Shown: positions 18,316 through 56,817 of the stretch, in pieces
How the letters are laid out: each line of letters opens with the position of its first letter
Position numbering within the stretch: position 1 is the stretch's first letter
From: a virus
Reading direction: 5' to 3' (one strand)
DNA: 64,000 bases
Virus record (IMG/VR): IMGVR_UViG_3300042863_001827
Span: 1 to 64,000 of that record
Made by a program: the position numbers and the translations under genes
Notes under the pieces: generated by a model
Told to the model about the DNA's origin: nothing
Databases searched by the model: none
What the model saw: the letters and a program-made list of their open reading frames with translations, nothing else

Positions 18316-18374
18316 TCTTTTTTTATTTTTTTTAAAGATTTGTATCTGAATCGTTATCTATCTCTTTTGTTTTA

Positions 18375-24003: not shown

Positions 24004-24074
24004 AGCGGGTAGAGAGAATCGAACTCTCGTCTTCAGATTGGAAGTCTGAAGTAATACCATTATACGATACCCGC
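24004..24074 (-). tRNA. tRNA-Gly(TCC)
   Basis: Acceptor GCGGGTA/TACCCGC, anticodon arm TCAGA-CTTCCAA-TCTGA (TCC), T arm GAGAG-TTCGATT-CTCTC. CCA not encoded. Confidence 0.92.
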
Positions 24075-24369: not shown

Positions 24370-24375
24370 ATAATT

Positions 24376-24440
24376 AAAGGGTAGACACGGGCCTAGCTAG
24401 CCATCTTTCAGGAAAGGCCCTTACTAATATTCTACCCTTT
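24376..24440 (-). ncRNA. Compact structured element between tRNAs
   Basis: 65 bases closed by a 10-bp stem AAAGGGTAGA/TCTACCCTTT with an inner GGGCCT/AGGCCC stem and a CTTT-CCTG-AAAG hairpin. It has tRNA size but no T-loop or anticodon. May be a processing signal or small RNA. Confidence 0.4.
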
Positions 24441-24443
24441 TAG

Positions 24444-24516
24444 TTGCGGGAACAGGGTTCGAACCTGTAATCTAGGCTTATGAGACCTAGCGGATGACCA
24501 ATTTCCACATCCCGCG
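24444..24516 (-). tRNA. Initiator tRNA-fMet(CAT)
   Basis: Acceptor CGCGGGA/TCCCGCA leaves a C1 x A72 mismatch, the hallmark recognised by Met-tRNA formyltransferase. The anticodon loop CTCATAA carries CAT, the anticodon stem has GG/CC next to the loop, and the D stem has purine 11-pyrimidine 24 (G-C) as in initiators. T arm ACAGG-TTCGAAC-CCTGT, discriminator A, CCA not encoded. Third G-C pair of the classical GGG/CCC anticodon stem is replaced (T-G). Confidence 0.87.
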
Positions 24517-24521
24517 ATATG

Positions 24522-24595
24522 TAGTTAATATTGGACTCGAACCAATGACCTATTCCGTATCAGGGAATTGCTCTAACCAACTGAGCTAATTAACT
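24522..24595 (-). tRNA. tRNA-Ile(GAT)
   Basis: Acceptor AGTTAAT/ATTAACT, D arm GCTC-AGTTGGTTA-GAGC, anticodon arm ATTCC-CTGATAC-GGAAT (GAT), T arm ATTGG-TTCGAGT-CCAAT. Confidence 0.95.
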
Positions 24596-24671
24596 ATATT
24601 CTCGTCTTTCCGAGGTGTCAATACGGATATTTTGTGTACAATTCAGGACTCTCGTATTGCTTCCTTAGTTG

Positions 24672-24746
24672 TAGTCAGGGCCGGACTCGAACCGGATAAG
24701 TAACCATATAGGACTCGGAACCATTCCTCATTACACCCACCTGACT
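24672..24746 (-). tRNA. tRNA-like element, anticodon unresolved
   Basis: Perfect 7-bp acceptor AGTCAGG/CCTGACT and T arm CCGG-TTCGAGT-CCGG at normal spacing, so tRNA-derived. In the 43 bases between I find no 5-bp/7-base anticodon arm and no D stem; instead GTAAT/GTTAC and GGAA-TGG-TTCC pairings. Could be a remnant, an intron-bearing tRNA, or a tRNA mimic. Confidence 0.4.
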
Positions 24747-24976
24747 ATATCAACATTAGCACTTCAACTTTCTACTCCCAGCACCGAGGAATTGTATCTA
24801 ACTTAGCCCGTCTCACCGCTGTGTGGGAACTGAAGTTTACTAATGTTTTGAGGATGAGAAGTCCTCTGTGTTGTCTGTACTGTTTAACTTGTCCGATTAC
24901 ACTTTTATTGTGGTCGTAGTTTATTTCATACATAGTGTCTGTTCAGTCTTACTTTCTCAAGGGAACAACACATTTG
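24747..24976 (-). other. Spacer with long inverted repeat
   Basis: 230 bases without a supported gene. Bases about 24752-24847 form a hairpin with AACATTAG/CTAATGTT at its base and ACTTCA/TGAAGT inside, so a stable structured RNA of about 95 bases lies here. The rest shows nothing recognisable. Confidence 0.4.
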
Positions 24977-25097
24977 TAGTCAGGACAGGAATCGAACCTG
25001 TAACCACGTCTGGTATGGGTTCACTTACTGCCAATGAGATTGCGGTCTCAAGGATTCGGTTATTTGCCATAGCGTATACCAATTCCGCCACCTAACT
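24977..25097 (-). tRNA. tRNA-Leu-like gene with about 40-base insertion in the anticodon loop
   Basis: Acceptor AGTTAGG/CCTGACT, a textbook Leu D arm (TGGCGGAATTGGTATACGC), a Leu-type variable arm CCAGACGTGG and T arm ACAGG-TTCGATT-CCTGT. The anticodon stem TATGG/CCATA is perfect but encloses 48 bases, not 7; the extra sequence folds as TGAGA-CCGCAA-TCTCA. An intron in the anticodon loop would explain this; the mature anticodon cannot be read. Confidence 0.5.
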
Positions 25098-25108
25098 ATG
25101 TTTTTTTG

Positions 25109-25182
25109 GGTAACTAATGGGAATTGAACCCATGGCACAAGGTACCACAAACCTTTGCTCTACCAACTGAGCTATAGTTACC
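25109..25182 (-). tRNA. tRNA-His(GTG)
   Basis: Anticodon arm AAGGT-TTGTGGT-ACCTT (GTG). The extra G at -1 faces C73, the identity pair of tRNA-His. D arm GCTC-AGTTGGTA-GAGC, T arm ATGGG-TTCAATT-CCCAT. Confidence 0.93.
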
Positions 25183-25361
25183 ATTTATTTGTGATTCATA
25201 GTTGACACACACTCTTGTCTCACCATCTTATGTCAACAGGTTAATGTACTTTACAAGTTTCCCGTTTCTTACTTCACACAATATTTTAATTTCAAAGAAC
25301 TTTTCTTTTTGTGTGGGAGTGAGTCCACCAACACATTTACTCACCCCCATCGTTTCTTCTA
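25183..25361 (-). other. Leader/spacer with strong hairpin
   Basis: No supported ORF. Immediately downstream (minus sense) of a host-type promoter, the RNA would start with a hairpin GGGGTGAGT ... ACTCACTCC, and a TTGACA/TGTCAA inverted repeat follows near 25210. Probably the processed leader of the left part of the tRNA array. Confidence 0.45.
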
Positions 25362-25393
25362 CAAAGATATGTAATCACTTTTGATTTGCCAAA
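25362..25393 (-). promoter_or_regulatory. Promoter inside the tRNA array
   Basis: Minus strand TTTG, 20 bases, TATCTTTG. Flanks closely resemble the three promoters of the long RNA (TTTTGATTT upstream part), so this is a fourth copy of the same element. It would transcribe tRNA-His through tRNA-Asp. Confidence 0.72.
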
Positions 25394-25423
25394 CAATTTG
25401 TAAAATATTTTTTATTTTTTTTG

Positions 25424-25497
25424 TACCTCCAACAGGACTCGAACCTGTAAAATTCATTTTCTAAGAATGACTCGTATACCAATTCCGACATAGAGGC
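25424..25497 (-). tRNA. tRNA-Leu(TAG) with short variable loop
   Basis: Acceptor GCCTCTA/TGGAGGT, Leu-like D arm, anticodon arm TCATT-CTTAGAA-AATGA (TAG), T arm ACAGG-TTCGAGT-CCTGT. The variable loop is only 5 bases; bacterial tRNA-Leu normally has a long arm. Confidence 0.82.
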
Positions 25498-25506
25498 GTT
25501 TTATTG

Positions 25507-25577
25507 AGGCCCCGATTGGATTTGAACCAACGTAAACGGTTTTGCAGACCGCCTCCTAACCACTCGGACACAGGACC
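25507..25577 (-). tRNA. tRNA-Cys(GCA)
   Basis: Acceptor GGTCCTG/CGGGGCC, anticodon arm GCGGT-CTGCAAA-ACCGT (GCA), T arm GTTGG-TTCAAAT-CCAAT, discriminator U73 as required by CysRS. Confidence 0.93.
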
Positions 25578-25592
25578 ATTTTTAATTGTTTG

Positions 25593-25665
25593 CACTCCAG
25601 GAAGGTCTCGAACCTCCGACACACGGATTTGGAATCCGTTGCTCTACCAACTGAGCTACTGAAGT
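25593..25665 (-). tRNA. tRNA-Trp(CCA)
   Basis: Acceptor ACTTCAG/CTGGAGT, anticodon arm ACGGA-TTCCAAA-TCCGT (CCA), T arm GGAGG-TTCGAGA-CCTTC, discriminator G73 as in bacterial tRNA-Trp. Confidence 0.93.
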
Positions 25666-25782
25666 GTATTGGGTGAATAGTGGGTTGTTGTATTATATCT
25701 ATTCGGAAATTTTCCTAATAGATTATTCAATTGTAGATGTCTATCCGGAAATTTTCCGGATTTTAATTTCGGAAGACATTAG

Positions 25783-25857
25783 TCGGGATACCAGGACTCG
25801 AACCTAGATGATGTCCACTTCCCAAAAGTGGCGACTTACCAATTAGTCCACATCCCG
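25783..25857 (-). tRNA. tRNA-Pro(TGG)
   Basis: C1-G72 acceptor CGGGATG/TATCCCG (Pro identity), anticodon arm CCACT-TTTGGGA-AGTGG (TGG), T arm with TTCGAGT loop. Confidence 0.92.
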
Positions 25858-25863
25858 TTATTG

Positions 25864-25935
25864 TTGTTCCCCAAGGGTTCAAACCTCGATTCCATGGACC
25901 AAAACCATGTGTCCTGCCGATTAGACGAGGGAACA
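25864..25935 (-). tRNA. tRNA-Gln(TTG)
   Basis: U1-A72 acceptor TGTTCCC/GGGAACA, anticodon arm CATGG-TTTTGGT-CCATG (TTG), T loop TTTGAAC. Confidence 0.92.
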
Positions 25936-25967
25936 GAATAAAACCAATATGTCAAAGAACCTTTTTG

Positions 25968-26039
25968 AGCTCCGTACCAGAATCGAACTGATTTCTCCTG
26001 ATTACAAGTCAGGCGCATCGCCATCAATGCTTACAGAGC
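25968..26039 (-). tRNA. tRNA-Thr(TGT)
   Basis: Acceptor GCTCTGT/ACGGAGC, D stem GCAT/ATGC, anticodon arm CCTGA-CTTGTAA-TCAGG (TGT), T arm ATCAG-TTCGATT-CTGGT. Confidence 0.93.
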
Positions 26040-26052
26040 CAATATAAAACAA

Positions 26053-26083
26053 AAAAACCCGAGATTTTAGTCTCGGGTTTTAC
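26053..26083 (-). terminator. Bidirectional terminator upstream of the tRNA array
   Basis: AAAACCCGAGA-TTTTAG-TCTCGGGTTTT, an 11-bp stem flanked by A and T runs. It ends transcription entering from the right, so the first tRNAs need a promoter not recognised here, or partial read-through. Confidence 0.85.
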
Positions 26084-26299
26084 ATTCCTTTTATTATGTT
26101 GTTAAACGTTTTTAACTCATAAATAAAAATACCCTCGACTGATTTTGCGTAATATAGCCGAACGACCACTGAATGCTCGGTAGACAATTAACCATATGTT
26201 TAAGTGTATTTTTCATTTTGTTATAAATATATCGTTGTTTCTAAAAATTTAATTCTTTTATAAATATATGTAGTTTTTTTTATTTAACAAGTGTTTTTA

Positions 26300-26794
26300 T
26301 TATTTAACTTCAAACGCATAAAACAATATACGTTTTTTCTTGGTTGAATCTTCATAGTTACCAATCACAACACCATCTTTAATTGTGAAAGCGTGACGAC
26401 TAACTAACATAAAAAATGTCCCAACAGGGTTTTGTTTTGTAAAAGTACCTACAGTCATTTTACGGTTAACCTTCTCACCCTTTACGTTAACGGTATATTC
26501 TAATGTGCGTCTATTGTAATTGTTTAATTTACCAACACATTTAACTTTTTTGTAATTTATTTGAGTTCTATTCTCCGCAAGGTTGGTCATTTTATTTACA
26601 GTACCATAAGTCCCTTGACGGTTCTTACGACCAAAATTATCTCTAACGTATCCGTGAGCGTAATTGTAAGATACATCAAAACAAGACGCAAATGCTCTTA
26701 CAACACAATCATTTTTTTCATTTTTCGCAATTTGGGATTCTTCATAACCTTTAATCGCTTTTTCTGTATTACAATATGGTAGTGAGTCTTTCAT
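26300..26794 (-). CDS. Papain-like fold phage protein
   Basis: About 164 residues from the ATG reading MKDSLPYCNT; an upstream ATG gives 'MYLYN', which is the translation of a TATCTTTAC promoter-like box and is thus unlikely to be coding. 'KNDCVVRAFASCFDVSYNYAHGY' supplies a Cys followed by a helix, and 'FFMLVSRHAFTIKDGVVIGNYED' supplies His and Asn/Asp in papain-like order. Similar small proteins are common in phages; a cysteine peptidase or amidase is possible, activity unproved. Confidence 0.72.
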   Translation of the reverse strand: MKDSLPYCNTEKAIKGYEESQIAKNEKNDCVVRAFASCFDVSYNYAHGYVRDNFGRKNRQGTYGTVNKMTNLAENRTQINYKKVKCVGKLNNYNRRTLEYTVNVKGEKVNRKMTVGTFTKQNPVGTFFMLVSRHAFTIKDGVVIGNYEDSTKKKRILFYAFEVK

Positions 26795-26877
26795 ATTGTA
26801 AAGATACAAAAAATTTTGTAATCGGAGTCTACTTTTGCGAAAAATATTAAACTAATAAATTAAAATTTTTATCTTTT

Positions 26878-26915
26878 AACCCAAAACCACGGGTCCTACC
26901 ATTAGACCAAAAGAC
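26878..26915 (-). pseudogene. 5'-half tRNA-Gln remnant
   Basis: Minus strand GGTC-TAATGGTAG-GACC is a complete D arm, followed by CCGTGGTTTTGGG, matching the anticodon arm of tRNA-Gln(TTG) up to the loop. Acceptor 3' strand and T arm are missing, so this is half a tRNA left by recombination. Confidence 0.55.
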
Positions 26916-26934
26916 TGTTTTACTATTTTTTTGA

Positions 26935-26942
26935 TATTTATA
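26935..26942 (+). promoter_or_regulatory. Candidate late-promoter octamer TATTTATA
   Basis: TATTTATA on the plus strand, 31 bases before the small holin-like gene. Confidence 0.4.
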
Positions 26943-26973
26943 GTCTGGCATAAACCTTTAATCAACATTAAAA

Positions 26974-27138
26974 ATGACTAAAGAACAAATCCAAGGTATC
27001 GTTAGACACGCACTTACTTTTGTAGGTGGTATCCTGATTATGAAAGGTCTTGCAACTGATTCATCAGTACAAGAACTTATCGGAGCAGCGGTTACACTTG
27101 TAGGTGGTGTGTGGTCAATTATTTCTAAAAAGAAATAG
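26974..27138 (+). CDS. Small holin-like membrane protein (Pam3-gp28 type)
   Basis: A 54-residue protein beginning MTKEQIQGIVRHALTFVGGI and ending in SKKK. It has two hydrophobic helices separated by a short 'DSSVQEL' turn. The order 'RHALTF.GG.L..KG' then 'GA..TL.G..WS' is the signature of the short Pam3-gp28 putative holin family. Two membrane segments with a basic tail fit a class II holin. It is the only plus-strand gene in this neighbourhood and has its own terminator. Confidence 0.8.
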   Translation: MTKEQIQGIVRHALTFVGGILIMKGLATDSSVQELIGAAVTLVGGVWSIISKKK

Positions 27139-27160
27139 TTGATAAATACCAAATCAAAGA

Positions 27161-27187
27161 AAAAGGGGGAATTATCCCCCTTTTTTT
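27161..27187 (+). terminator. Rho-independent terminator after holin-like gene
   Basis: AAAAGGGGGA-ATTA-TCCCCCTTTTTTT, stem plus T run, 22 bases past the stop. Confidence 0.88.
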
Positions 27188-27212
27188 GTTTATTGATGTA
27201 AAAAAATTATCA

Positions 27213-27920
27213 CTAATTAATTTTTAATTTACACTCATTACAGAACTCTTTAGTGTCTAAACCGTGAGATTTCATGATACAAGATTGATTATTACAGTGA
27301 GATAACCCAAAGTTATGTCCTAATTCGTGTACCGCAGTATGAACTAAACTAGTATTATTATAGTGATTGTTGTTTCTCATTTCTTTAGTACTAATAACAG
27401 AGCCGTCACAATTAATTCTTGCGTGTCCACTAATCAAATCATTAGAATTTTCATTACATAATGGTTCGTCAGTAACATACATATTCATATTTGATTTACC
27501 AACAGATAATGTTAATACTTTGTACGCTAACAATACGTTAGTGTTATTGTCATAGTAAAAATCATCTGACTCAACACTTTCAGAGATAACACAACGGATA
27601 CCGTAGAAGTTTTCAACGCCTTCTTTGATTGTATAAAGGTCACTTTGAGTATATTTACCAAAACCGTGGATGTTGATTACTCGGTCAGAACTAACTTCAG
27701 TTGAAGATGGTTGTTCTACATCGGTAATTTTAACCTCTTCTTCTTTTGAATAGTTCTTGTCATAACCGTAAACTTTGTCAAGTCTTTTTGCCTCAGACTC
27801 CAAAGAACCCATTACTTTGTCATAACTATAGTCGTATTTTTCTAAATACTCATTGGTTCCTCCGATAACAAAAACCATCAAACCAATATAAACGATGTCT
27901 TTAAGTGCTGAATATTTCAT
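27213..27920 (-). CDS. Membrane-anchored archaemetzincin-like metalloprotease
   Basis: A 235-residue protein with an N-terminal membrane segment (about 8-22) and a C-terminal zincin domain: HELGHNFGLSHC (198-209) gives the three His ligands, followed by Cys214, Met216 of the Met-turn, and CNEC (227-230). This HExxHxxGxxHC...CxM...CxxC arrangement is that of archaemetzincins (M54), with a second zinc site of four Cys. It would face the periplasm. Rare in phages; perhaps acts on envelope proteins or on exclusion factors. It has a good host-type promoter. Confidence 0.85.
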   Translation of the reverse strand: MKYSALKDIVYIGLMVFVIGGTNEYLEKYDYSYDKVMGSLESEAKRLDKVYGYDKNYSKEEEVKITDVEQPSSTEVSSDRVINIHGFGKYTQSDLYTIKEGVENFYGIRCVISESVESDDFYYDNNTNVLLAYKVLTLSVGKSNMNMYVTDEPLCNENSNDLISGHARINCDGSVISTKEMRNNNHYNNTSLVHTAVHELGHNFGLSHCNNQSCIMKSHGLDTKEFCNECKLKIN

Positions 27921-27924
27921 ACCA

Positions 27925-27955
27925 CAAATGTACTATTTTTTTTTTAATCTACAAA
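27925..27955 (-). promoter_or_regulatory. Bacteroidota-type promoter for the archaemetzincin-like gene
   Basis: Minus strand TTTG, 19 bases, TACATTTG; the -7 box ends 4 bases before the ATG, so the mRNA should be leaderless. Confidence 0.7.
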
Positions 27956-27959
27956 AAAA

Positions 27960-28211
27960 TTATTCATTTTTTAAATCGTCAATCATCATTTTTTTTAAAA
28001 TTGATGGATTATTTTTCCACTCTTTCCAAGTTTCAAAATCTTTCAACCTTTCTAAGGTTTGTTCGGGTATAAGTAAAAACCCTTCAGGTGTTATACCATC
28101 ATATTTATGAAAATGTGAATTTTCTATTTTTTCCATAATCATTTGACAAAATAGTTCGCTATTAATAAACTCGTTGTGTTCTTGTTCTAAGATATTGTCA
28201 TGTCTTCCCAT
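27960..28211 (-). CDS. Hypothetical protein
   Basis: An 83-residue helical protein ('EHNEFINSELFCQMIMEKI', 'PEQTLERLKDFETWKEWKNN'). No membrane segment, no recognised family. It lies between tRNA-Arg and the archaemetzincin-like gene on the same strand. Confidence 0.68.
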   Translation of the reverse strand: MGRHDNILEQEHNEFINSELFCQMIMEKIENSHFHKYDGITPEGFLLIPEQTLERLKDFETWKEWKNNPSILKKMMIDDLKNE

Positions 28212-28225
28212 ATAATAAATTTTAG

Positions 28226-28299
28226 TGACCTCGACTGGATTCGAACCAGTAACCTACACATTAGAAGTGTGTTGCTCTATCCAATTGAGCTACGAAGCC
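28226..28299 (-). tRNA. tRNA-Arg(TCT)
   Basis: Acceptor GGCTTCG/CGAGGTC, D arm GCTC-AATTGGATA-GAGC, anticodon arm ACACA-CTTCTAA-TGTGT (TCT), T arm ACTGG-TTCGAAT-CCAGT. Reads AGA, a frequent Arg codon in this A+T-rich genome. Separated from the main array by 2.2 kb. Confidence 0.94.
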
Positions 28300-44706: not shown

Positions 44707-45528
44707 TTACGATAATAATGAATAATATTCTTTAAAGTGTTTAATCCTATCTTCTAATCCGATAGTACCTCCATTTACTCTTTTTGTAACCGCAGTTACA
44801 GTAGCAACATCGGACCCTTTATCGCATATTGACCAAAGTTTATTTGAGTCAAAGAAAAACGCAGCAGACGCTAATGGATATTTTGTTGCAACTAAATCAG
44901 GATTTGTAACAGTATCTTCACCAATAAATTTAGCAAAGTTTGTGTAGTTTGATTTTCCAGTTAATTGAATGTATCCTCTTCCACGGAATTTAAAACCTTC
45001 TTTAGAAGCTTCGTTACCATTACCCATACGGTCAGCATATACTCTTGAAGCAATCTTCTCAGGTTGACGAGCATAAGACTCATTTAAGTTGCCAGGAAAG
45101 TATTTCCCAAAAATCTTTTTAAGACCATCTGCAGAATAATTAACATTTTCACTAACCGCTTTAAATCCACCACTTTCATGACCACATTGTGCCAAGAAAT
45201 GAGATAATCTTAATGAGTTAGTTATGTTAAATTTTACCGCAGTCTCAGGGATTTGTGCGATAACCGAATCAGGAATATGTCCTTTTAATTTTTCTAAGTT
45301 TAATGGTCCTCCTTTTGGGATAACAACGTCTTCTTTTATTACTTTACTACCAAACATTTTACTCCAAGTACCGTCTCCAACTATACCATCGGCGGTTAAT
45401 CCGTTTGCGGATTGCCATTCTTTTACTTTAGTTTCAGTTCCAGAACCAAAATTACCGTCAGCCGTTAGACCCAATTTTGATTGTAATTTTTTAACGTCTT
45501 CACTTTTAGACCCTTTTTTTAATAACAT
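44707..45528 (-). CDS. Endolysin: peptidoglycan-binding domain plus GH19
   Basis: A 273-residue lysin. Residues 1-62 form a PG_binding_1 domain ('LKKGSKSEDVKKLQSKLGLT', 'FGSGTETKVKEWQSANGLTA'). Residues 75-273 are a glycoside hydrolase family 19 domain: catalytic Glu in 'FLAQCGHESGGF', then 'GRGYIQLTGKSNY' and 'ASAAFFFDSNKLW'. It cleaves the glycan strand at lysis. No signal peptide, so it depends on a holin. The cassette of exported proteins starts right upstream. Confidence 0.92.
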   Translation of the reverse strand: MLLKKGSKSEDVKKLQSKLGLTADGNFGSGTETKVKEWQSANGLTADGIVGDGTWSKMFGSKVIKEDVVIPKGGPLNLEKLKGHIPDSVIAQIPETAVKFNITNSLRLSHFLAQCGHESGGFKAVSENVNYSADGLKKIFGKYFPGNLNESYARQPEKIASRVYADRMGNGNEASKEGFKFRGRGYIQLTGKSNYTNFAKFIGEDTVTNPDLVATKYPLASAAFFFDSNKLWSICDKGSDVATVTAVTKRVNGGTIGLEDRIKHFKEYYSLLS

Positions 45529-45568: not shown

Positions 45569-47239
45569 TTAATAACCCAATATTGTTGAGTTTGAATAAC
45601 CCGTGTTTATTAGATAATAGTTTGCACTACCCCCACTTACAGGTGACGAGATAGTAATATTTTGAACACCTGGATAGGTACTTCTTAAATCAGTTGTTGA
45701 TGTGTTAATGATTGAAAATTGTGACGAGGTAAATAATCTCACACTTGGTAATGAAGAACCCCAAGAGATGAATCTATTAATTTTTTTCATAAAAATATAA
45801 TATTCATCCGAAACAGTAATGTTTCCATCATTATTAACATCATATTTGTAATAATCTAAAGACGTAAAAGTTCTTGAAATTGCTTTTGACGACGCTCCAA
45901 CCGCATCAACATTTTGAAGTCCTGTTATTGTTGTTGGGGCATCTATTCGAATGTACCATTCTACAGATGGGTTAGTTGATTCATTAAAAGTATAATTTCC
46001 TGTTGCATCAGTATATATTGTTTTAAATAGGGTCCAAGGAGTGTAATCTACAATATAATCAAACTCTAAGACATAATTTAAAGAACTACTATTGTTTAAA
46101 TCGTTCCACTTACCCCCACTAACAAATTGAGTATAATCTTCGTTACTTGAGTTATTTGGTTCACCTGGATTCCAATTAGAATAAGGATAAATACCATACC
46201 GATAAGCATAAAGATTATAAATTCTATTAACCTCATCAACGGTTATACCTCTATCAAATACTTGAAAATCCCCTAATCTAAATGAACCATATGTTCCAGA
46301 CCCCATATTAGTCGCGTCGGTTAAACCAATTCCATAATATAAACCATTTCCATTCAATACAGGAGATTGTCTTGGTGTCACTACCACACCAAAACTTGTT
46401 CCATTTTTATATCCTGTTAAAGTTGTTCCATCATAAGTAAAACCAACTAAATTCCAAGTATTTAATGTAATTGAGGTACTTAATGATACTATATTAGTAT
46501 TCCAAATACCAACTCTTAAAGTGTTACCACCTGTTATTTCAATTTGTGAATTGTGCCAACCTGAAGTTGTGGTGCCTTGACCTAACTCAGTAACGATAAC
46601 ACCATTTCCTGTTGGATATATCCACATCATTAATGATGTTGTAACACCAGGAACTTTTAACGCTAAATTACCTGTCATACCATATTGATTTACACCATTG
46701 AATGTTAGATATTTACCTGATGTACTTGTATAAGTCGGTGAATTTGTTAGTGTTGCATTAACACCGCCTTTAATGTCTACTAATGACGCACCTGAAGTAT
46801 AAGACGCAACATCATAATCTGATTGTAAACCATTTGTAACAGGAAGTTCGGTCCATCTATACCCGCCTAAAGGTTCTGAGTATGAAAATCCAGCAACCCT
46901 ATCTTGGTAATACCCAATCCAACCTGAGGGCCAAGTATTATATACAAACGTATTTTCTGCCGCGTTAGACATTGTCACCAAATGTCCATTCATTGACTCA
47001 CAAGAGGATTTGGATGCGGTCCAAGTTGCGGTACCTGTCGAACGATAATATGAGTGTCCGTTATAATTTGTTTGAGACGTAAATCCTACTAATGTTGGTG
47101 TGGTTCTTTTATATAATTTAACAGGTACGTTCACCGCACCAACACTATTTGCGTTATAGATGTAACCTGAATAGGTAAAATTTTGTCCTCTCACTGTCAA
47201 AGACAAAAGTGTTAATATAACAAATAATGTATTTTTCAT
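45569..47239 (-). CDS. Exported C-type lectin-like protein with inserted LamG-like domain
   Basis: A 556-residue secreted protein. Signal peptide 'MKNTLFVILTLLSLTVRGQN' (cleavage before Gln-Asn). A C-type lectin fold begins at 'SYYRSTGTATWTASKSSCES' (45-65) and ends at 'WNPGEPNNSSNEDYTQF' (about 355) and 'KWNDLNNSSSLNYVLEF'. Between these halves (about 140-345) lies a LamG/concanavalin-like domain ('LTFNGVNQYGMTGNL', 'SLMMWIYPTG'). Then a beta domain and a dockerin-like 'DVNNDGNITVSDEYY' with a following 80-residue module also found in the 633-residue T9SS-tail protein. Sugar-binding surface protein; target unknown. Confidence 0.82.
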   Translation of the reverse strand: MKNTLFVILTLLSLTVRGQNFTYSGYIYNANSVGAVNVPVKLYKRTTPTLVGFTSQTNYNGHSYYRSTGTATWTASKSSCESMNGHLVTMSNAAENTFVYNTWPSGWIGYYQDRVAGFSYSEPLGGYRWTELPVTNGLQSDYDVASYTSGASLVDIKGGVNATLTNSPTYTSTSGKYLTFNGVNQYGMTGNLALKVPGVTTSLMMWIYPTGNGVIVTELGQGTTTSGWHNSQIEITGGNTLRVGIWNTNIVSLSTSITLNTWNLVGFTYDGTTLTGYKNGTSFGVVVTPRQSPVLNGNGLYYGIGLTDATNMGSGTYGSFRLGDFQVFDRGITVDEVNRIYNLYAYRYGIYPYSNWNPGEPNNSSNEDYTQFVSGGKWNDLNNSSSLNYVLEFDYIVDYTPWTLFKTIYTDATGNYTFNESTNPSVEWYIRIDAPTTITGLQNVDAVGASSKAISRTFTSLDYYKYDVNNDGNITVSDEYYIFMKKINRFISWGSSLPSVRLFTSSQFSIINTSTTDLRSTYPGVQNITISSPVSGGSANYYLINTGYSNSTILGY

Positions 47240-47240
47240 G

Positions 47241-47693
47241 TTAAAATTTTGATATTGCGTCTTGTAACGCCTTCTTTAATCCCGCAGAAAATGACGATTT
47301 CTCAAACGGTATGTTTTCATCTTGTAGTTCGATGAAAGTTGACTTAACATCAACCTTACTTTCACCAACACCTTCAAATTCTTTACCATTAATACCAACC
47401 TTTAAAGTAACAATAGTCACTTTTCTCTTCTTTTCAAATGGACCTATTGAAATCCCTGTAGTCGGGGATTCAATACTTTCAATAACAACTGACACAGAAT
47501 CGCCATTCTCACATATTGAATATTTTTGTGATAATAGTTCTTCAGTAATTTGTTTAACACCAAGAGTAAATCTTTTAGGGTTAATTCCTTCAATAGACCC
47601 TTTGTTCTCAACATGTTTAACGGTTAAACAGTTCTGTGAGTAAGAGGTTAACAACATTAATGTTGTGAACATAATTAATAATATTTTTTTCAT
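47241..47693 (-). CDS. Exported small protein paired with CsgG-like system
   Basis: About 150 residues from the ATG at MKKILLIMFTTLMLLT, chosen because it begins the signal peptide and leaves a 1-base gap to the gene upstream. Signal peptide ends at 'TSYSQNC', where Cys after the Gln may be a lipid site or disulfide. The mature part 'TLGVKQITEELLSQKYSICE' and 'KRKVTIVTLKVGINGKEFEG' resembles CsgG-associated or lipoprotein-type subunits by pattern only. Function unknown; probably acts at the outer membrane. Confidence 0.65.
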   Translation of the reverse strand: MKKILLIMFTTLMLLTSYSQNCLTVKHVENKGSIEGINPKRFTLGVKQITEELLSQKYSICENGDSVSVVIESIESPTTGISIGPFEKKRKVTIVTLKVGINGKEFEGVGESKVDVKSTFIELQDENIPFEKSSFSAGLKKALQDAISKF

Positions 47694-47694
47694 T

Positions 47695-49194
47695 TTATAA
47701 AAGTGCTTTAGCTCCAAGTAATACTTGGTAGTTTATTGCGTCACTCTTAATTTGTTGAACCCCACTAAAACTAAGGTTCAATTTAAATTTTTGAGTTAAC
47801 TTGTAATCAACGGCAACAAATGGAACTGCCAATAACCCTGATTGATACCATAAACCTTCATAATAATAGACGTAAGGTGAGTAAACCATTACAAACATTA
47901 AAGTGGTGCCTATTTTTTTTCCAACATTAAAATTACCAACAAGACCGCCTAATCCCGATAAACTAGTAAATTTAGATTCGCCTAAATTACCCCTGGTGTA
48001 GTTAACCCCAATTGTTGATGTTATTTTCTTTATTTTATAAGATTCCATTAATGACGTAGTATTAAAAAAATCTCTATCAAAATTTATCATTGATGAATTT
48101 GCGACTATTGTTGTTGAATTTTTATATCGATATGCAGCAAACAAGGTTAAACAAGAGTTGTTAATATTACTGGTATAATTAAGTAACATCCCTTTTGCAA
48201 AAGTATTCTTAGTGTTAGAATTAATAATACTCATGTTAACTTTAAGTTGTGGTTTTTCTTCACCTGTCGCACTTGATATGGTAACAATATCACCTGTCAT
48301 CATAAGACTTCCTTTTTTAACCGAGGCAACTTTTGACTTAACTTGTGCGGAGTTAGATGATGAAGTTTTACTTGCATCATTCATTTTATCTTCGTTAGAT
48401 TTTTGGTCGGTATTTGAATTATTTGACAAGTTACCGTTTCCACCTACAGACGATTGAGTCGTCGAACTTCCTCCTTGAGTTGTGTTACCTGAACCTGTAG
48501 TCCCACCTCCTTGCGTTGTTGTTGTTCCTCCTTCACCTGAATTACCTCCTCCAGTGTTTGGGTTAGTTCCGTTATTTCCTTGTGATTGCGCGTTTGTTTG
48601 ATTTGTTTCAGAAGAAGTTGTACTTCCTCCATTGTTATTTGTGGTACCATTATTTTGTGTTTGATTGTTAGACCCATTAGAAACACCATTTGGGGTGTTA
48701 GTTTGGTTTGACCCTTCGTTGGTTGTGGTCCCTTGATTTGGGTTATTTTTTTTATCTTCTTTTTTGTTATTTGACGATACTTTTTCATTACTTTGAATTA
48801 CCCCCTGAACTGTTGCCCCTCCACCCATAGATGAGAGACTAGACATGGTAGACATAACATTTGTTAACACCGATATATTATTCGCGGCAATCAAAACATT
48901 TAAATTAGTATTTAGTGCAACTCCAACACCAGCACAAGGACCTGTTCCTTGTGGATTAGATGAGTTAACTTGATTAACCCAAGTCTCTAATGCCCCTGAC
49001 TGTAATTGTGTTTGTGTGAAACTTTGAATCTGCCCTGAATATATTAAGGCAACACTCCCATTGGGATTGTTTATAAAAATTTCCTTAGATTTAAAGGTAC
49101 AGGGGTCCGTAAATGTGTACGAAAACCCCTGACCTAAAACCATCATAGTAGAGAACAGAAAACTTATTGTTATTAAAATTTTCTTAATGTTCAT
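47695..49194 (-). CDS. Exported protein with Asn/Thr/Gly-rich linker and outer-membrane-barrel-like C terminus
   Basis: A 499-residue protein with signal peptide 'MNIKKILITISFLFSTMMVLG' (next residue Gln). Residues 25-130 are a compact domain with two Cys; 135-280 a low-complexity linker of Asn, Thr, Gly, Ser, Gln; 300-499 alternating strands with aromatic ends ('CLTLFAAYRYKN', 'SPYVYYYEGLWYQSG') ending 'INYQVLLGAKALL', which fits a beta-barrel membrane domain of 8-10 strands. Probably displays the N-terminal domain at the cell surface. The linker DNA is repetitive. Confidence 0.7.
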   Translation of the reverse strand: MNIKKILITISFLFSTMMVLGQGFSYTFTDPCTFKSKEIFINNPNGSVALIYSGQIQSFTQTQLQSGALETWVNQVNSSNPQGTGPCAGVGVALNTNLNVLIAANNISVLTNVMSTMSSLSSMGGGATVQGVIQSNEKVSSNNKKEDKKNNPNQGTTTNEGSNQTNTPNGVSNGSNNQTQNNGTTNNNGGSTTSSETNQTNAQSQGNNGTNPNTGGGNSGEGGTTTTQGGGTTGSGNTTQGGSSTTQSSVGGNGNLSNNSNTDQKSNEDKMNDASKTSSSNSAQVKSKVASVKKGSLMMTGDIVTISSATGEEKPQLKVNMSIINSNTKNTFAKGMLLNYTSNINNSCLTLFAAYRYKNSTTIVANSSMINFDRDFFNTTSLMESYKIKKITSTIGVNYTRGNLGESKFTSLSGLGGLVGNFNVGKKIGTTLMFVMVYSPYVYYYEGLWYQSGLLAVPFVAVDYKLTQKFKLNLSFSGVQQIKSDAINYQVLLGAKALL

Positions 49195-49195
49195 A

Positions 49196-49543
49196 TTATA
49201 CTTCTGTTGTGTTAGATAAAGATACTCCGTCTTCTTCGTCCACTTTTTGAATTAACATTTTATCTCTATCTTCAGAGTTAAACCAATAGTCAACAACTTT
49301 ATTTAAGTTACCAACAAAGGCACCTAGTAAAATTAATAACATTTCTTTCCAATCTTCGCCAATAGACGCCCCTAAAAAGACACCAGCATTGATACCAACA
49401 ATGATTAGTGTAAATAACCCTAATATAATTGCGGTGATTCTCCAACGATTATTTTGCATTTCTTGTAACATATAAAAGAATCTATTTTTATCTTCTACTT
49501 TTGTCATCTTGGTTTTACCAATAAATAAATTTTTTAAGCTCAT
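49196..49543 (-). CDS. Holin-like membrane protein
   Basis: A 115-residue protein with two membrane helices ('ITAIILGLFTLIIVGINAGV' about 36-55 and 'MLLILLGAFVGNLNKVV' about 68-84) and charged ends. 'GNLNKVVDYWFNSEDRDK' resembles the end of small phage holins with a 'DYWFGS' type motif. The gene lies between the barrel protein and the CsgG-like gene with gaps of 1 and 5 bases, so it is part of that operon. Confidence 0.68.
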   Translation of the reverse strand: MSLKNLFIGKTKMTKVEDKNRFFYMLQEMQNNRWRITAIILGLFTLIIVGINAGVFLGASIGEDWKEMLLILLGAFVGNLNKVVDYWFNSEDRDKMLIQKVDEEDGVSLSNTTEV

Positions 49544-49548
49544 TTTTT

Positions 49549-50265
49549 TTAAGATTTAAAGACACCCTTTTTTATTAATTTTGACACAACTCTTGACGAT
49601 GCCGTTTCAAGAGCTTTTTTGGTCGAAATACCTATTGTTGATTGATTAAATTTGATACCTTCAACATCCGATAATAGTGATGACGTTTTAACTGTAGATG
49701 ATTCGCCTAAACCACTTCCTGTATAAATTTCACCCGTTTCAGCGTCCACAAATCTTACTTGTAAACCTAAACGAGTTGTTTGAGTTGTTTTAGCACCATC
49801 AGTCGCCTTTATCACCTCATCTTCTGATACTGAAAAGTCATATACTTCGATATAAACAAAATATTTAGCTAAGATTACATTACCTTTAACCTCTATTTTG
49901 TTACTTGAAATACCTTTATCAGAAGCCTTGTCTTGAGCAATCATTTTCTGTTTAATTTCCTCTTTATCTTCAGTAAATTTAAATCTATCCGTTGATTCCA
50001 AGTATTCTAAAACAATGTTAGCAACCCCTAATCCTACTCTTTTATCTTTAAGTTCAGGATACATTTCATATAGTTCTTCATTGATACCAATTTTAAGAAC
50101 TTGTATTGGGATTACGATTGTGTCGGTGTAATCCGATACGACAGACATGGATTGTTTCTTTTCAAAATCCGCTTGATATTCTTCAGTTTTTACGGTCCCT
50201 ATTTGTCCACTTACTTTACAAGAGAACAATAAAATTGGTAACGCAATTAATAATAACTTTTTCAT
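49549..50265 (-). CDS. CsgG-like outer-membrane lipoprotein
   Basis: About 238 residues from the ATG at MKKLLLIALPILLFSCKVSG; a TTG two codons earlier is less likely. Lipobox LFSC gives a lipoprotein. The mature part matches the CsgG fold: 'RVGLGVANIVLEYLESTDRF' (the CsgG 'G.G....  YL..TGRF' helix), 'EVKGNVILAKYFVYIEVYDF' with 'TTRLGLQVRFVDAETGEIY' (beta barrel strands) and 'ALETASSRVVSKLIKKGVF'. CsgG forms the nonameric curli secretion pore. A phage gene for this is unusual. Start overlaps the stop of the next gene (TAATG). Confidence 0.75.
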   Translation of the reverse strand: MKKLLLIALPILLFSCKVSGQIGTVKTEEYQADFEKKQSMSVVSDYTDTIVIPIQVLKIGINEELYEMYPELKDKRVGLGVANIVLEYLESTDRFKFTEDKEEIKQKMIAQDKASDKGISSNKIEVKGNVILAKYFVYIEVYDFSVSEDEVIKATDGAKTTQTTRLGLQVRFVDAETGEIYTGSGLGESSTVKTSSLLSDVEGIKFNQSTIGISTKKALETASSRVVSKLIKKGVFKS

Positions 50266-50612
50266 TACCAAGAGTCTTCTTCTTTCTTAACAGGTTTAAC
50301 TGCAGGTTCTGTTTGAGTCGCAGGTTTTTCAATAATCCTTTCTTTGATGATAGTATTGGTACCACCGCCGTTTTCAACTTTTTGTTTATTTTCTTGATTT
50401 TGTTGTACATTAACAATTACAGGTGAAGGCGCAACAGTTTGTTCTGTTTTAGTTTCTTCTTTATCTTCTGAGTGACCCCCGAATAACATTGTTGATAGCC
50501 ATATACCACCACCAGCAATTACTGTTGTTAATGTTCCGATAATGGTCTTTTTTAAACCTGACCAAGTACCGTCATTTGTTTCATTTGTTTCATTTGTTGT
50601 TTCCTCTGACAT
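50265..50612 (-). CDS. Single-pass membrane protein with charged tail
   Basis: A 115-residue protein: Thr/Asn/Glu-rich start, one membrane segment 'IIGTLTTVIAGGGIWLSTMLFGG' (quoted in part; about 25-47), and a charged Gln/Glu/Lys/Pro tail. It might span the periplasm as a coupling factor between the inner membrane and the CsgG-like pore, as its genes overlap; a holin-like role is also possible. No family recognised. Confidence 0.65.
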   Translation of the reverse strand: MSEETTNETNETNDGTWSGLKKTIIGTLTTVIAGGGIWLSTMLFGGHSEDKEETKTEQTVAPSPVIVNVQQNQENKQKVENGGGTNTIIKERIIEKPATQTEPAVKPVKKEEDSW

Positions 50613-50645
50613 AATTTTTGTTTTTTATTTAGTTTATTGTTTAAG

Positions 50646-50672
50646 GCTAAGCGGTCACAATGTGTGACCGCA
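50646..50672 (-). terminator. Stem-loop after the T9SS-tail protein gene
   Basis: GCGGTCACA-AT-GTGTGACCGC, a strong hairpin 6 bases past the stop of the large T9SS-tail gene; it lacks a long T run, so it may attenuate or stabilise mRNA instead of fully terminating. Confidence 0.55.
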
Positions 50673-50677
50673 TGTTA

Positions 50678-52579
50678 TTATTTTAAAATAATTCTATTTG
50701 TTAATTGTTTGTCACTTCTTTTAAGAACCGCGATGTAAACACCTGCAGTTAAGTTACCTAAACTAGTTTCATATTGATAATCACCCATGGGCATTTTATC
50801 ATTAACCACTATTTTATATTCAACCCCATTAATACCGTAAACCGATAATTTAACAGGTCCATATTCTTTAACTTCAAATTTAACATTAATATAATCATCC
50901 GTTGGGTTAGGGAATACTGTCATGTCGTCAAATCCACCAACGCCAGGGTTAGATAATTTATAAACTTGTAAAATACCGTTTGTTGGTGTGATAGTTAAAT
51001 CTTTACACGTATTATTACCCGCAAACTTATTTGTGGTCCAAAGAGGACTTGTTGTCCATTGGTCTTGAGGTTGTTTTGTAATAAACTTTAATGTAACAAC
51101 TTCATCACCATCATTTAATGGTTTTAAATGTGAACTAACATCATATCCCCCCCATGAAATCTCATTGTCATTAGTATTCAAGTAGGTTAACCAACTTGAA
51201 GCTGATGATTTTGCATCAATTCCTTTGAAGTCTAATAATGTGTCATTGTATTTTAATCCGAATTGTAATGAACCTAATTTAACACCATTAGTTAACACTT
51301 TAATAGGTATATTAACCAAACTACCTTCTTGAACAGATAAGTGAGGTACGTTAACCTCAATAGATGTTGTAGGGAAGTCATAGTCTACTTTAGTGTCAAT
51401 CACGTTATAAATTTGTGATTCAACACCTGGTTGAGGTGTAATTAAAACTTCAATTGGTGTAACACGAGCCATATGGTAACCTGTACCATTTGCATCGCCA
51501 GGAACTAACACATAGAATGTTGGAGAAGAGGCTCCCTCAATAATATTAAATGTAAAGTTAGTTGTTCCAAAAATTGATGATAGATAATTAGTCGATGAAC
51601 CATTAATTGTCTCATATTCGGATGAGGTAAAGAACTTAACGTCTTTCACACTGTTAGGCCAAACTGAGAATCTACCAGAAATTCTACCAAATACCCCATA
51701 AGCGTCAGAAATAGTTAAATTATTATCACCATTAACGTCAGCGGTGTAATAGTCAAAACCTGTAGGTGTTTGTGTACCTAAAACATAGTCGTTAACTTTT
51801 TGAGCGTCAGCGGTAGAAATTACGTTACCAACTAACATAGTGTCACCAACAATTTTAATACGAACATCATAACCCGTAGTATCTACCGCAATATTACTAA
51901 ATGCGAAAACACCACTATTGTTTGATAATACACTTGTTACAGGTGTCCAAGAACCGTTTGGCCTAAGTTTTTTCTCTAAACCAACCGTTAGGTTTTTTGC
52001 CCCCGTTCCTGTAACGTTAGTAAATGTACCACTAAACGAAAATGTTTGAGGTGACATAACACCACCAAAGTTCTGTAAAGTTAAAGTATTGTCAGTACCA
52101 TCTTGATTTGTGGAAATAGAGGGGAATGTGTTAACACCGCTAAATGACATATTATCAACAGATGATAGTGTGGAAAATCCTGTAATATGATTCAACTTCA
52201 ATTGTACAAAAGCTCCGTCAGGAATTTCGAATGACGATAAACTACCTGTGTAAGATAATGTAATTGTCACAAAACCTAATGATGGGTTATCAACATACTG
52301 TAAATACTGAGAATATGACGTGTTTAATGAGGTGACTGTGTTAATGCCAGAAAATGCTAATTTGTCATAGTATACTCTGAATTGTGTCGCGGTAATTAAT
52401 GTTGTTGTGTTGTTGTAAAAACACAAACCTACGTTAGTAAAACCAACTGCCGACGGCGCCAATTGATAATTAGAATCTAACGTAACAAAAACTCCACTTG
52501 TCGTGGGTGTTGGACATGTTTGAGCATATCCAATTAGGGTCGTTGCCAAAATGACAAACAAGGTTACTAGTTTTTTCAT
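50678..52579 (-). CDS. Exported cohesin/dockerin-like protein with T9SS sorting tail
   Basis: A 633-residue protein. Signal peptide 'MKKLVTLFVILATTLIGYAQ'. An N-terminal cohesin-like beta domain, a beta domain near 175-245, a dockerin-like loop pair 'DVNGDNNLTISDAYG' (about 280) with the module ending 'FYVLVPGDANGTGYHMARVT', a second cohesin-like domain 'SLQFGLKYNDTLLDFKGID' (about 435), and at the end a type A T9SS sorting domain: 'VFPNPTDDYINVKFE' (559-573), 'VKLSVYGINGVEYK' and 'LTAGVYIAVLKRSDKQLTNR'. T9SS is found only in Bacteroidota; its tail on a phage protein predicts export to the surface of the infected cell. Head of the secretion cassette. Confidence 0.87.
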   Translation of the reverse strand: MKKLVTLFVILATTLIGYAQTCPTPTTSGVFVTLDSNYQLAPSAVGFTNVGLCFYNNTTTLITATQFRVYYDKLAFSGINTVTSLNTSYSQYLQYVDNPSLGFVTITLSYTGSLSSFEIPDGAFVQLKLNHITGFSTLSSVDNMSFSGVNTFPSISTNQDGTDNTLTLQNFGGVMSPQTFSFSGTFTNVTGTGAKNLTVGLEKKLRPNGSWTPVTSVLSNNSGVFAFSNIAVDTTGYDVRIKIVGDTMLVGNVISTADAQKVNDYVLGTQTPTGFDYYTADVNGDNNLTISDAYGVFGRISGRFSVWPNSVKDVKFFTSSEYETINGSSTNYLSSIFGTTNFTFNIIEGASSPTFYVLVPGDANGTGYHMARVTPIEVLITPQPGVESQIYNVIDTKVDYDFPTTSIEVNVPHLSVQEGSLVNIPIKVLTNGVKLGSLQFGLKYNDTLLDFKGIDAKSSASSWLTYLNTNDNEISWGGYDVSSHLKPLNDGDEVVTLKFITKQPQDQWTTSPLWTTNKFAGNNTCKDLTITPTNGILQVYKLSNPGVGGFDDMTVFPNPTDDYINVKFEVKEYGPVKLSVYGINGVEYKIVVNDKMPMGDYQYETSLGNLTAGVYIAVLKRSDKQLTNRIILK

Positions 52580-52675
52580 ACTTATTTTTTTAGTTTATTT
52601 ATTTCACTCTTGACAATAAATATTCTTTGTTTATAATATCGACCGTATTTTTACTATTTATTATTAAAAAAAACT

Positions 52676-53119
52676 ATGAAATACCTTTTATTAATAATAT
52701 TGTTTTTTTGTACGTTAGAATCTACCGCACAAATTAAGATTGAGGATGTTGGGGATAATTGGAAATATAAGGTTACTGAAGCATTACTTTTAATAAAAAG
52801 TACTGACTCAGAAAAGTATTTGACCTTAATCGAGGTTTGTAATCATATATCTTTTTGGAATGGTGGGTTTTCGACAACAGAAGATTCTAAGACCATTATG
52901 ATATCTCAAAAGGATATGAATTTTAACTCAATAAATAATATTGCCGCGATATTAGTCCATGAATCAAAACATTTGTTTTTCTTAAAACATAATTGCTCTC
53001 TACCGCCAAATGATGAAGAGATTGTTTGTTATCGATATGAATTAAATTTTTTGGATAAAATTCCAAATGTTGAGCCTTGGTTAATTCAGAACGCAAAAAA
53101 TAAAATAAAATATTACTAA
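52676..53119 (+). CDS. Exported zincin-like protein
   Basis: A 147-residue protein with signal peptide 'MKYLLLIILFFCTLESTAQ'. The mature part carries 'AAILVHESKHLFFLKHNC', an HExxH zinc motif, followed by 'DEEIVCYRYELNFLDKIP' with candidate Glu ligand. Small secreted metallopeptidase-like proteins of this layout occur in Bacteroidota. Divergent from the T9SS-tail gene. Confidence 0.72.
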   Translation: MKYLLLIILFFCTLESTAQIKIEDVGDNWKYKVTEALLLIKSTDSEKYLTLIEVCNHISFWNGGFSTTEDSKTIMISQKDMNFNSINNIAAILVHESKHLFFLKHNCSLPPNDEEIVCYRYELNFLDKIPNVEPWLIQNAKNKIKYY

Positions 53120-54948: not shown

Positions 54949-56817
54949 ATGGGAAAAATTATTGGCGTAGATTTAGGGACCACAAATTCATGTGTGGCAG
55001 TCATGGAGAATGGCGAACCTGTTGTGATTACAAACAGTGAAGGGAAAAGAACCACACCCTCAATAGTGGCATTTATTAATGGCGGAGAAAGAAAAATTGG
55101 TGACCCAGCAAAAAGACAGGCGGTTACAAACCCGACCAAAACAATTTCATCAATTAAACGTTTCATGGGGACAAGTTATGACGAGGTTAAAAAAGAATTG
55201 TCTAAAGTTCCGTATTCAATCGTAAAAGGAAACGGGAACGTTCCTAGAGTGAGTATTGATGATAGAAATTACTCTCCACAAGAGATTTCTGCAGTTGTTT
55301 TACAAAAAATGAAACAAACCGCCGAAGATTATTTAGGCGAGAGTGTTACAGAAGCGGTTATTACGGTACCCGCGTATTTTAATGACGCACAACGTCAAGC
55401 AACCAAAGAAGCTGGTGAAATAGCAGGTCTAACGGTTAAACGTATTATTAACGAACCTACCGCCGCAGCATTAGCATATGGTTTAGACAAAATGTCTAAA
55501 GATATGAAAATTGTTGTATTTGACTGTGGTGGTGGTACACATGACGTATCAATCCTTGAATTAGGTGGTGGTGTATTTGAAGTGTTGTCAACCGATGGTG
55601 ACACTCACTTAGGTGGAGATGACTTTGACCAAGTGATTGTTGATTTTATGGTCGATGAATTTAAAAAATCAACTGACGGTCTTGATGTCACTAAAGATTC
55701 TATGGCGTTACAACGTTTACGTGAGGCTGCGGAAAAAGCAAAAGTTGAGTTATCGTCGTCACTTCAGACAGAAATTAATTTACCGTATTTAAGTGCCGAC
55801 TCAACAGGTCCTAAACACTTAGTAACTTCTTTATCTCGTGCCAAATTTGAACAATTGGCGGATTCATTAATTAAACGAACAATCAAACCTTGCATAACCG
55901 CAATGTCAAATGCAAACATTACTATCGGTGAAATTGATGAAATAATTTTGGTTGGTGGTTCTACCCGTATTCCCGCAATTCAAAACGCGGTTAAAGAATT
56001 CTTTGGTAAAGAACCTTCAAAAGGAGTTAACCCTGATGAGGTTGTCGCTTTAGGTGCCGCAATTCAAGGTGGTGTATTGGCTGGTGATGTTAAAGATGTA
56101 TTACTATTAGATGTTACTCCATTGTCATTAGGTATCGAAACCATGGGAGGAATTTTTACAAAATTAATTGAGTCTAACACAACCATACCAACCAAAAAAT
56201 CACAGGTATTCTCAACTGCGGTAGATAACCAACCAACTGTAGAAATTCACGTATTACAAGGTGAACGGGCAATGTCAAAAGATAATCGGACTATTGGTAG
56301 ATTCCATTTAGATGGGTTACCACCATCAATGAGAGGTATTCCTCAAATTGAAGTTATCTTTGATATTGATGCGAACGGTATTATAAATGTATCTGCGGTT
56401 GATAAGGCAACAAGTAAAAAACAATCTATAAGAATTGAGTCGTCTTCAGGTTTATCCAAAGAAGATATTGAAAAAATGAAACTTGAAGCGGAAGAAAATG
56501 CGGAATCAGATAAAAAAATAAAAGAAGATGTCGATACTTTAAATTCTGCGGACAGTACTATTTTCCAAATGAATAAATCATTAGAAGATTTAGGTGATAA
56601 AATATCTGAAGAAGATAAAACTGAGATTACCACAGGCATTACTAAGTTAAAAGACGCACACGGTAAAAAAGAAATTGACTCAGTTAAACAAATCATGGAA
56701 GAGTTAACTCAGAAGTTTCAAAAGATTAGTCAGGATTTATATGAAAGCGTAAATCAAGAGAATAATGACGGTGCAATGGACGCGTCTGATGTTGAATTTG
56801 AAGAAACTAAGTCTTAA
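54949..56817 (+). CDS. dnaK: Molecular chaperone DnaK (Hsp70)
   Basis: A full-length Hsp70 of 622 residues. The nucleotide-binding domain has '[20 protein letters not shown]' at the start, '[14 protein letters not shown]', the phosphate-2 loop '[13 protein letters not shown]' (host form is DLGGGTFDVSILE, so Leu to Cys and Phe to His here), and '[11 protein letters not shown]'. The substrate domain follows ('[20 protein letters not shown]') with a helical lid. The end lacks the EEVD-like or GE/MD repeats. No dnaJ or grpE in the window, so it must use host co-chaperones. Phage hsp70 genes are known in a few giant phages. Its function may be folding of viral proteins. Confidence 0.95.

Follow-up and report, generated by a model that had tools for sequence, protein, structure and literature searches.

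A mobile cassette of predicted exported phage proteins, including a type IX secretion substrate and a lectin with exchangeable heads, that may remodel the surface of infected Bacteroidota cells

The window analyzed here comprises 64,000 nucleotides (bases 1–64000) of a 77,826-bp IMG/VR virus record, IMGVR_UViG_3300042863_001827, and was found to carry a compact cassette of predicted exported and membrane proteins on its minus strand. Encoded in the window are a portal, a terminase, a tape-measure protein, an ATP-dependent protease, DnaK and an array of 13 tRNA genes; the remainder of the record adds a thymidylate synthase. At the DNA level, its closest cultured relatives are the Flavobacterium phages immuto (genus Immutovirus, ~160 kb), whose host is Flavobacterium sp. 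LMO8. Reading from 52579 down to 45569, the cassette consists of T9C (633 amino acids), TM1 (115), CSG (240), HOL (115), BAR (499), SML (~150) and LEC (556), and is followed by an endolysin gene, LYS. All of the cassette genes correspond to open reading frames (ORFs) at the minus-strand positions given below. An initial annotation, made from the sequence alone, had described six consecutive minus-strand genes; their location, strand and consecutive arrangement were borne out, with the count corrected to seven, which is also the number named in its own list. Spacing between the genes is tight, TM1/CSG and BAR/SML overlapping or abutting and the CSG–HOL, HOL–BAR and SML–LEC gaps being 1–5 bases each. 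The T9C–TM1 gap is 65 bases and contains a perfect 9-bp inverted repeat (50651..50671), a possible intercistronic hairpin which may uncouple the expression of T9C from that of the remaining cassette genes.

A search of viral contigs with CSG identified 122 relatives, and the top 80 were retained for comparison. Gene maps of the fetched loci follow the order T9C, TM1, HOL or another small transmembrane protein, CSG, BAR, and then LEC and SML in either order, except that LEC comes first in immuto-like phages; the cassette is often accompanied by SPT, an exported protein bearing an HExxH motif, and by an endolysin. The initial annotation had proposed looking for the same gene set in other phages, and this search returned T9C, TM1, CSG, BAR, SML and LEC, complete and on a single strand, in all 23 non-redundant viral loci with adequate flanks. 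SPT (16 loci), LYS (15) and HOL (11) are optional among these. In comparisons with diverged relatives, dN/dS ranged from 0.03 to 0.29 (the value for LYS is unreliable as a different endolysin-like ORF was paired), which indicates that the cassette is under purifying selection.

Among cultured phages, the cassette was found only in Immutovirus. A cellular origin was considered and rejected, as CSG was present in just two genome contigs of the GTDB set, and BAR or CSG in only one of 250 same-family genomes, on the same phage-like contig. Two contigs assigned to bacterial metagenome-assembled genomes, L092 (CAIWBA010000291.1) and L093, carry CSG and have the appearance of phage contigs binned with bacteria. 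As far as tested, the cassette is phage-restricted. It does not share the history of the virion genes beside which it travels. The phage of locus L038 has a portal and large terminase subunit (TerL) 87 and 80% identical to those encoded in the window, but a T9C which is only 55% identical, while the phage of L028 has a portal of 38% and a TerL of 33–36% identity, but a CSG of 88%; in L025, a cluster-mate of L028, T9C is 70% and the BAR barrel 79% identical. These differing histories show that the cassette has moved between phage lineages, and the largest contigs bearing it measure 308 kb. In immuto and several other phages, the cassette sits after DnaB, NrdF and NrdA on the same strand, apart from the structural genes, a placement which suggests middle expression. 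It adjoins the endolysin gene in relatives of the window phage, and in the window itself lies ~25 kb from the portal/terminase/tape-measure cluster.

Signal peptides were judged by a simple heuristic score, not by SignalP; this score also fires on internal membrane segments, and a positive result for HOL and TM1 was taken to mean membrane only. Positive scores were obtained for T9C (59/59), CSG (37/38), BAR (52/53), SML (42/43), LEC (45/46) and SPT (35/35), against a background of 13% of 731 neighboring genes and none of 28 endolysins. The exported nature of these proteins, proposed in the initial annotation, agrees with such N-termini being found in nearly every T9C, CSG, BAR, SML and LEC. 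Taken with the secretion tail described below, these signals make export of the cassette proteins well supported at the level of sequence.

T9C (50678..52579, minus strand), recognized from its ORF and profile matches, is a putative exported, scaffold-like protein with a signal peptide, an N-terminal cohesin-like region, a CNA-B/dockerin-like module, a cohesin and a type A sorting tail of the type IX secretion system (T9SS). The tail (50678..50917, minus strand) scored above the curated cut-offs of both PF18962 (35.8 bits, cut-off 27) and TIGR04183 (26.3 bits, cut-off 23). It was also detected as Por_Secre_tail (PF18962) in 30 of 30 full-length T9C relatives, and exceeded the cut-off in 18 of 18 module-bearing phages tested, every time on the cassette protein, so that the type A tail first read from the letters is confirmed. 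The cohesin domain (50945..51373, minus strand) was assigned by alignment to a cellulosomal cohesin and by PF00963 matches in 26 of the 30 relatives (best E 1.4e-12), the window T9C itself having no PF00963 match. A dockerin-like region (51644..51847, minus strand), with one canonical Ca-loop (DVNGDNNLTISD) and a second which is degenerate, was matched weakly in the window protein (PF00404, E 0.034; 4uyp_B, E 0.0072) and as Dockerin_1 (PF00404) in 19 of the 30 relatives (best E 7.8e-5). Compared with the PDB, the T9C profile aligned weakly with solved T9SS tails and with the dockerin and cohesin chains of cellulosomes (E 0.003–0.075). Of the cohesin/dockerin-like domains originally proposed, the window protein itself shows only the weak dockerin match.

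In immuto, T9C is divided between gp14, which covers the N-terminal part, and gp15, which carries the cohesin and the T9SS tail, each gene product having its own signal peptide, as expected if both halves must exit the cytoplasm. It has been reported that type A substrates require only the host PorV shuttle, and that type A C-terminal domains are secreted through this general shuttle even if overproduced (PMC12618676). A phage could therefore exploit the host T9SS without supplying any component itself, and host capacity would be no obvious obstacle. By curated cut-offs, T9C is a T9SS type A substrate in every phage tested, and PorV/SprA-dependent secretion is predicted.

LEC (45569..47239, minus strand) is a putative exported C-type-lectin/LamG protein carrying a dockerin-like tail module, and its reading as a lectin/LamG protein in the initial annotation was upheld, as Lectin_C (PF00059, 32.9 bits, cut-off 22.6) and Laminin_G_3 (PF13385) both exceeded their cut-offs; Lectin_C was matched in 21 of 28 LEC relatives. 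The head (residues 69–398; 46046..47035, minus strand) is a C-type lectin with an inserted LamG domain. Among relatives it is swapped for a C-type lectin alone, for one with an inserted LamG, or for GEVED/SdrD/Ig domains. The final 160 residues form a CNA-B/dockerin-like module (residues 399–556; 45569..46045, minus strand) that shares homology with the central part of T9C (hhalign 99.7%, E 5.6e-27). Against L038, the window protein has a head identity of 87% and a tail identity of 69%, with T9C at 55%, whereas against L007 the head is at 59%, the tail at 85% and T9C at 83%. Head distances correlate with those of the other cassette proteins at r 0.15–0.31 and tail distances at r 0.40–0.66. These comparisons indicate that head and tail have separate histories and that heads recombine independently. 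Retention of the docking end together with exchange of the ligand-binding end is the pattern expected of a protein that serves in display or recognition. The C-type lectin was also considered as a target of a diversity-generating retroelement, and this was rejected, no reverse transcriptase being present in the record, which may be a fragment.

Exchangeable heads of this kind resemble the evolution of phage receptor-binding proteins, and lectin folds are common on phage tails. LEC and the scaffold protein could on this basis be accessories of the virion or of its release, carried on particles or on virion-bound outer-membrane material, for instance as host-recognition decorations. However, signal-peptide-like N-termini occur throughout the cassette, T9C has a secretion tail, and the genes are remote from the structural cluster here and beside replication genes in immuto. 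Virion structural proteins would be encoded within the structural cluster and be devoid of signal peptides, and the cassette proteins show neither property. A virion location is disfavored, and we consider this explanation to be improbable.

CSG (49549..50271, minus strand), a putative exported protein, shows the strongest conservation in the cassette, with ~85 invariant columns in 35 sequences and a dN/dS of 0.03–0.1. Sequence-profile search gave no PDB match, and the Pfam CsgG profile (PF03783) detected 2 of 35 CSG members at E ~0.01, leaving the window CSG unmatched. The AlphaFold2 model of CSG, however, had Escherichia coli CsgG as its top PDB match (E 1.9e-8, full length), followed by PelC, FlgT, GNA1162 and LptE. 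The description as a CsgG-like lipoprotein therefore stands for the modeled fold but not by sequence profile, and the lipobox with its lipoprotein Cys, although present in the window protein, occurs in only 18 of 38 relatives. SML (47241..47693, minus strand), the small exported protein of the earlier description, has a signal-peptide-like N-terminus in 42 of 43 relatives as stated, and profile–profile comparison identifies it as a CSG homolog, a second CsgG-like domain (96.5%, E 1e-9; the aligned region takes in the signal peptide, which somewhat inflates the score). Short matches of SML to ribosomal S1 structures in the PDB were rejected as chance. At the sequence level, no useful PDB matches were obtained for CSG, SML or BAR, and their assignment to solved families was likewise rejected.

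BAR (47695..49194, minus strand) consists of an N-terminal domain, a disordered N/Q/G/S/T-rich linker (59–401 residues among relatives) and a putative C-terminal outer-membrane barrel. In the structure model, residues 296–497 (47704..48309, minus strand) form 12 antiparallel strands resembling the outer-membrane porins NanC and KdgM as well as autotransporter and FapF barrels, which is in keeping with the barrel-type outer-membrane protein of the initial annotation. TM1 (50265..50612, minus strand) is a putative one-pass inner-membrane protein, defined by its ORF, transmembrane prediction and relatives. It has one glycine-rich transmembrane segment, and because KK precedes this segment and an acidic stretch follows, an N-in/C-out orientation is probable; its C-terminus is SW or PW in 50 of 50 relatives, and this terminal [SP]W is likely a short recognition motif. 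Pairwise distances (Mantel) correlate best between the BAR barrel and SML (r 0.92, the highest of all pairs), followed by SML–CSG (0.82) and CSG–BAR (0.79), suggesting that CSG, SML and BAR work together, with shared inheritance in one operon also adding to these values.

Given an outer-membrane barrel in the same operon as a T9SS substrate, BAR could be a PorV/PorP/SprF-like shuttle for T9C, the cassette then being a self-contained substrate–shuttle pair. Type B substrates do travel with a cognate barrel shuttle encoded adjacently (PMC12618676). However, T9C is of type A and would be served by host PorV, and the 12-stranded BAR model matches NanC/KdgM ahead of the 14-strand FadL-type barrels, making this a very remote prospect.

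HOL (49196..49543, minus strand), identified by its ORF and hydrophobicity, was called holin-like, and two hydrophobic segments were indeed found. The designation drew no profile support, as no holin or spanin PHROG profile matched any cassette protein, and HOL occurs in only 11 of the 23 loci, another small transmembrane protein taking its place in many relatives. LYS (44707..45528, minus strand; phrog_181, E 1.2e-66), which is without a signal peptide, lies downstream of the cassette. The main rival to surface display is a lysis module, in which CSG, SML, BAR and TM1 would assemble into a device spanning the envelope, by which the outer membrane is opened or weakened as infection ends, with HOL or a substitute as holin, LYS as endolysin, and T9C and LEC as accessories loosening the surface layer. 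An endolysin is nearby in 15 of 23 loci and small proteins with two transmembrane segments lie inside the cassette. The gene for TM1, an inner-membrane protein with a periplasmic arm, overlaps that for an exported lipoprotein in the manner of i-spanin/o-spanin pairs, and a lysis role has already been proposed for the CsgGF of phage Melnitz (PMC9004378). However, immuto and others have no endolysin adjoining the cassette, which is located among replication genes, HOL is not universal, holin and spanin profiles are unmatched, and lysis requires neither a T9SS substrate nor swappable lectin heads. This explanation is regarded as unlikely.

On the other flank, SPT (52676..53119, plus strand; 16 of 23 loci) is transcribed divergently and encodes an exported protein, a putative metallopeptidase, with the HExxH motif and a signal peptide in 35 of 35 relatives each. 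A perfect TTGACA-N16-TATAAT was observed upstream of it at 52610–52637. Bacteroidota promoters usually differ from this consensus. An exported NUC1/EndoG-type nuclease (DKGH/DRGH motif, signal peptide) recurs as an accessory in 19 loci, either within the cassette or next to it. In L056, L057, L017, L021 and others it is placed between LEC or BAR and SML, and in immuto it is gp12. Surface proteins combined with the HExxH protein and this nuclease might digest or bind extracellular polymers and so feed phage replication, the exported nuclease being inside the cassette in several of its 19 loci, the HExxH protein present in 16 of 23 flanked loci, and nucleotide-metabolism genes neighboring the cassette. 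However, there is no recognized hydrolase among the six core genes, and both the nuclease and the HExxH protein are optional; scavenging is judged to be a poor prospect. A known defense system was also rejected, as PADLOC anti-phage defense models gave no match among eight proteins.

Elsewhere in the window, the phage-encoded DnaK is full length (54949–56817, plus strand) and the 13 tRNA genes form an array (23644–28299, minus strand). Three near-identical promoter-like boxes of the Bacteroidota type, TTTG-N20-TATCTTTG, lie ~91–92 bases apart at 18192–18406 (minus strand). Twelve TTTG-N20-TATCTTTG sites occur in the window compared with 3.7 expected.

The interpretation favored here is surface display, by which the mobile cassette would remodel the outside of the infected Bacteroidota cell, and we give this reading as a whole an even chance. 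The individual contacts from which it is built are each held with less confidence. The host T9SS (PorV/SprA) would take T9C through the outer membrane, after which the protein would stay attached at the cell surface. Together with BAR, CSG and SML would form a CsgG/PelC-like ring or collar, TM1 would tie this complex to the inner membrane, and the complex would export or position LEC. LEC may then dock on T9C by cohesin–dockerin-type contacts, an assembly that we infer from the domains described above, and infected cells would thereby present a glycan-binding lectin. The most probable benefit is a superinfection block by covering or changing surface glycans, or the sticking of infected cells to neighboring hosts or particles, and the swapped lectin heads fit both. 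The purposes offered in the initial annotation, namely superinfection exclusion, aggregation and prey capture, are all still candidates. More tentatively, and as a possibility we lean against, CSG, SML, BAR and TM1 may constitute an envelope-spanning phage secretion apparatus which exports LEC while the host T9SS exports the cohesin scaffold, the two routes building a modular lectin coat and the whole spreading as a unit between distant phages, including jumbo-sized ones.

Several observations weigh against surface display. The dockerin-like modules have just one canonical Ca-loop, and T9C and the LEC tail covary only weakly once background is accounted for (partial r 0.10–0.26), for which reason specific co-evolution of the two is not claimed. 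LEC lacks a T9SS tail, so the T9SS does not account for its exit route. Confidence in the CSG model is medium (predicted local distance difference test, pLDDT, 70.5), and a membrane pore formed by CSG is doubtful because the long strands predicted at 137–197 are polar in sequence. Finally, the frequency of the endolysin as a neighbor is compatible with a role in lysis.

It is commonly assumed that virulent phages contribute little to the surface of cells that are soon lysed. A strictly conserved, horizontally moving exported cassette would imply that building something on the surface of infected cells pays for many aquatic phage lineages, with one exported protein using the Bacteroidota-specific T9SS of the host. 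As the cultured pair of immuto and Flavobacterium sp. LMO8 carries the cassette, T9SS use, superinfection exclusion and infected-cell adhesion are directly testable.

The initial annotation had suggested that using the host T9SS to decorate the infected cell, or to build a surface structure, would be a new phage strategy. This is not supported in that form, as T9SS-tailed cargo is already on record from Cryophage, for which hijacking and superinfection were suggested (PMC7468147), and from crAss-like contigs (PMC6949934); phage CsgG has likewise been reported for pelagimyophages and Melnitz (PMC7029224, PMC9004378). No paper on the combined mobile cassette was found in the open-access literature (subscription papers and preprints were outside the search). 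Phage T9SS cargo and phage CsgG are thus each known separately, and it is the combined mobile six-gene cassette that we did not find described. The Cryophage proteins, too, end in T9SS type A tails and have been proposed to exploit the host machinery, but they are variable single enzymes and a PA14 protein (PMC7468147). The cassette instead has a single conserved cohesin/dockerin protein, set in a fixed block of six genes alongside CsgG-like and barrel partners. In crAss-like cluster 2, T9SS-tailed proteins likewise occur near carbohydrate-binding proteins in Bacteroidota phages; the domain is BACON instead, and CsgG-like/barrel partners are not reported in the part of that source available (PMC6949934).

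Cellulosomal scaffolds are similar in that cohesin and dockerin-like domains are distributed over a scaffold bound to the surface and the partner that it holds. The cassette differs from them in that its dockerin-like modules keep a single canonical Ca-loop, its cargo is a lectin rather than an enzyme, and the pairing is predicted. Pelagimyophages and Melnitz also encode CsgG-fold proteins, for which surface ("sibling capture") or lysis roles have been proposed, but these are recognizable csgG and csgF without a T9SS substrate, in contrast to the two divergent CsgG-like proteins and separate barrel found here (PMC7029224, PMC9004378). A curli (type VIII) system was rejected, as the curli partners CsgF (PF10614) and curlin (PF07012) had no match in six phages, with the E. 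coli control being positive. PelC, the next-best fold family for CSG after CsgG, forms a lipoprotein ring with a separate barrel, PelB. No polysaccharide synthase was seen among the cassette proteins, and the relation to PelC/PelB is one of fold only; the phage-only CsgG-like pair, together with its barrel, may be a new outer-membrane machine.

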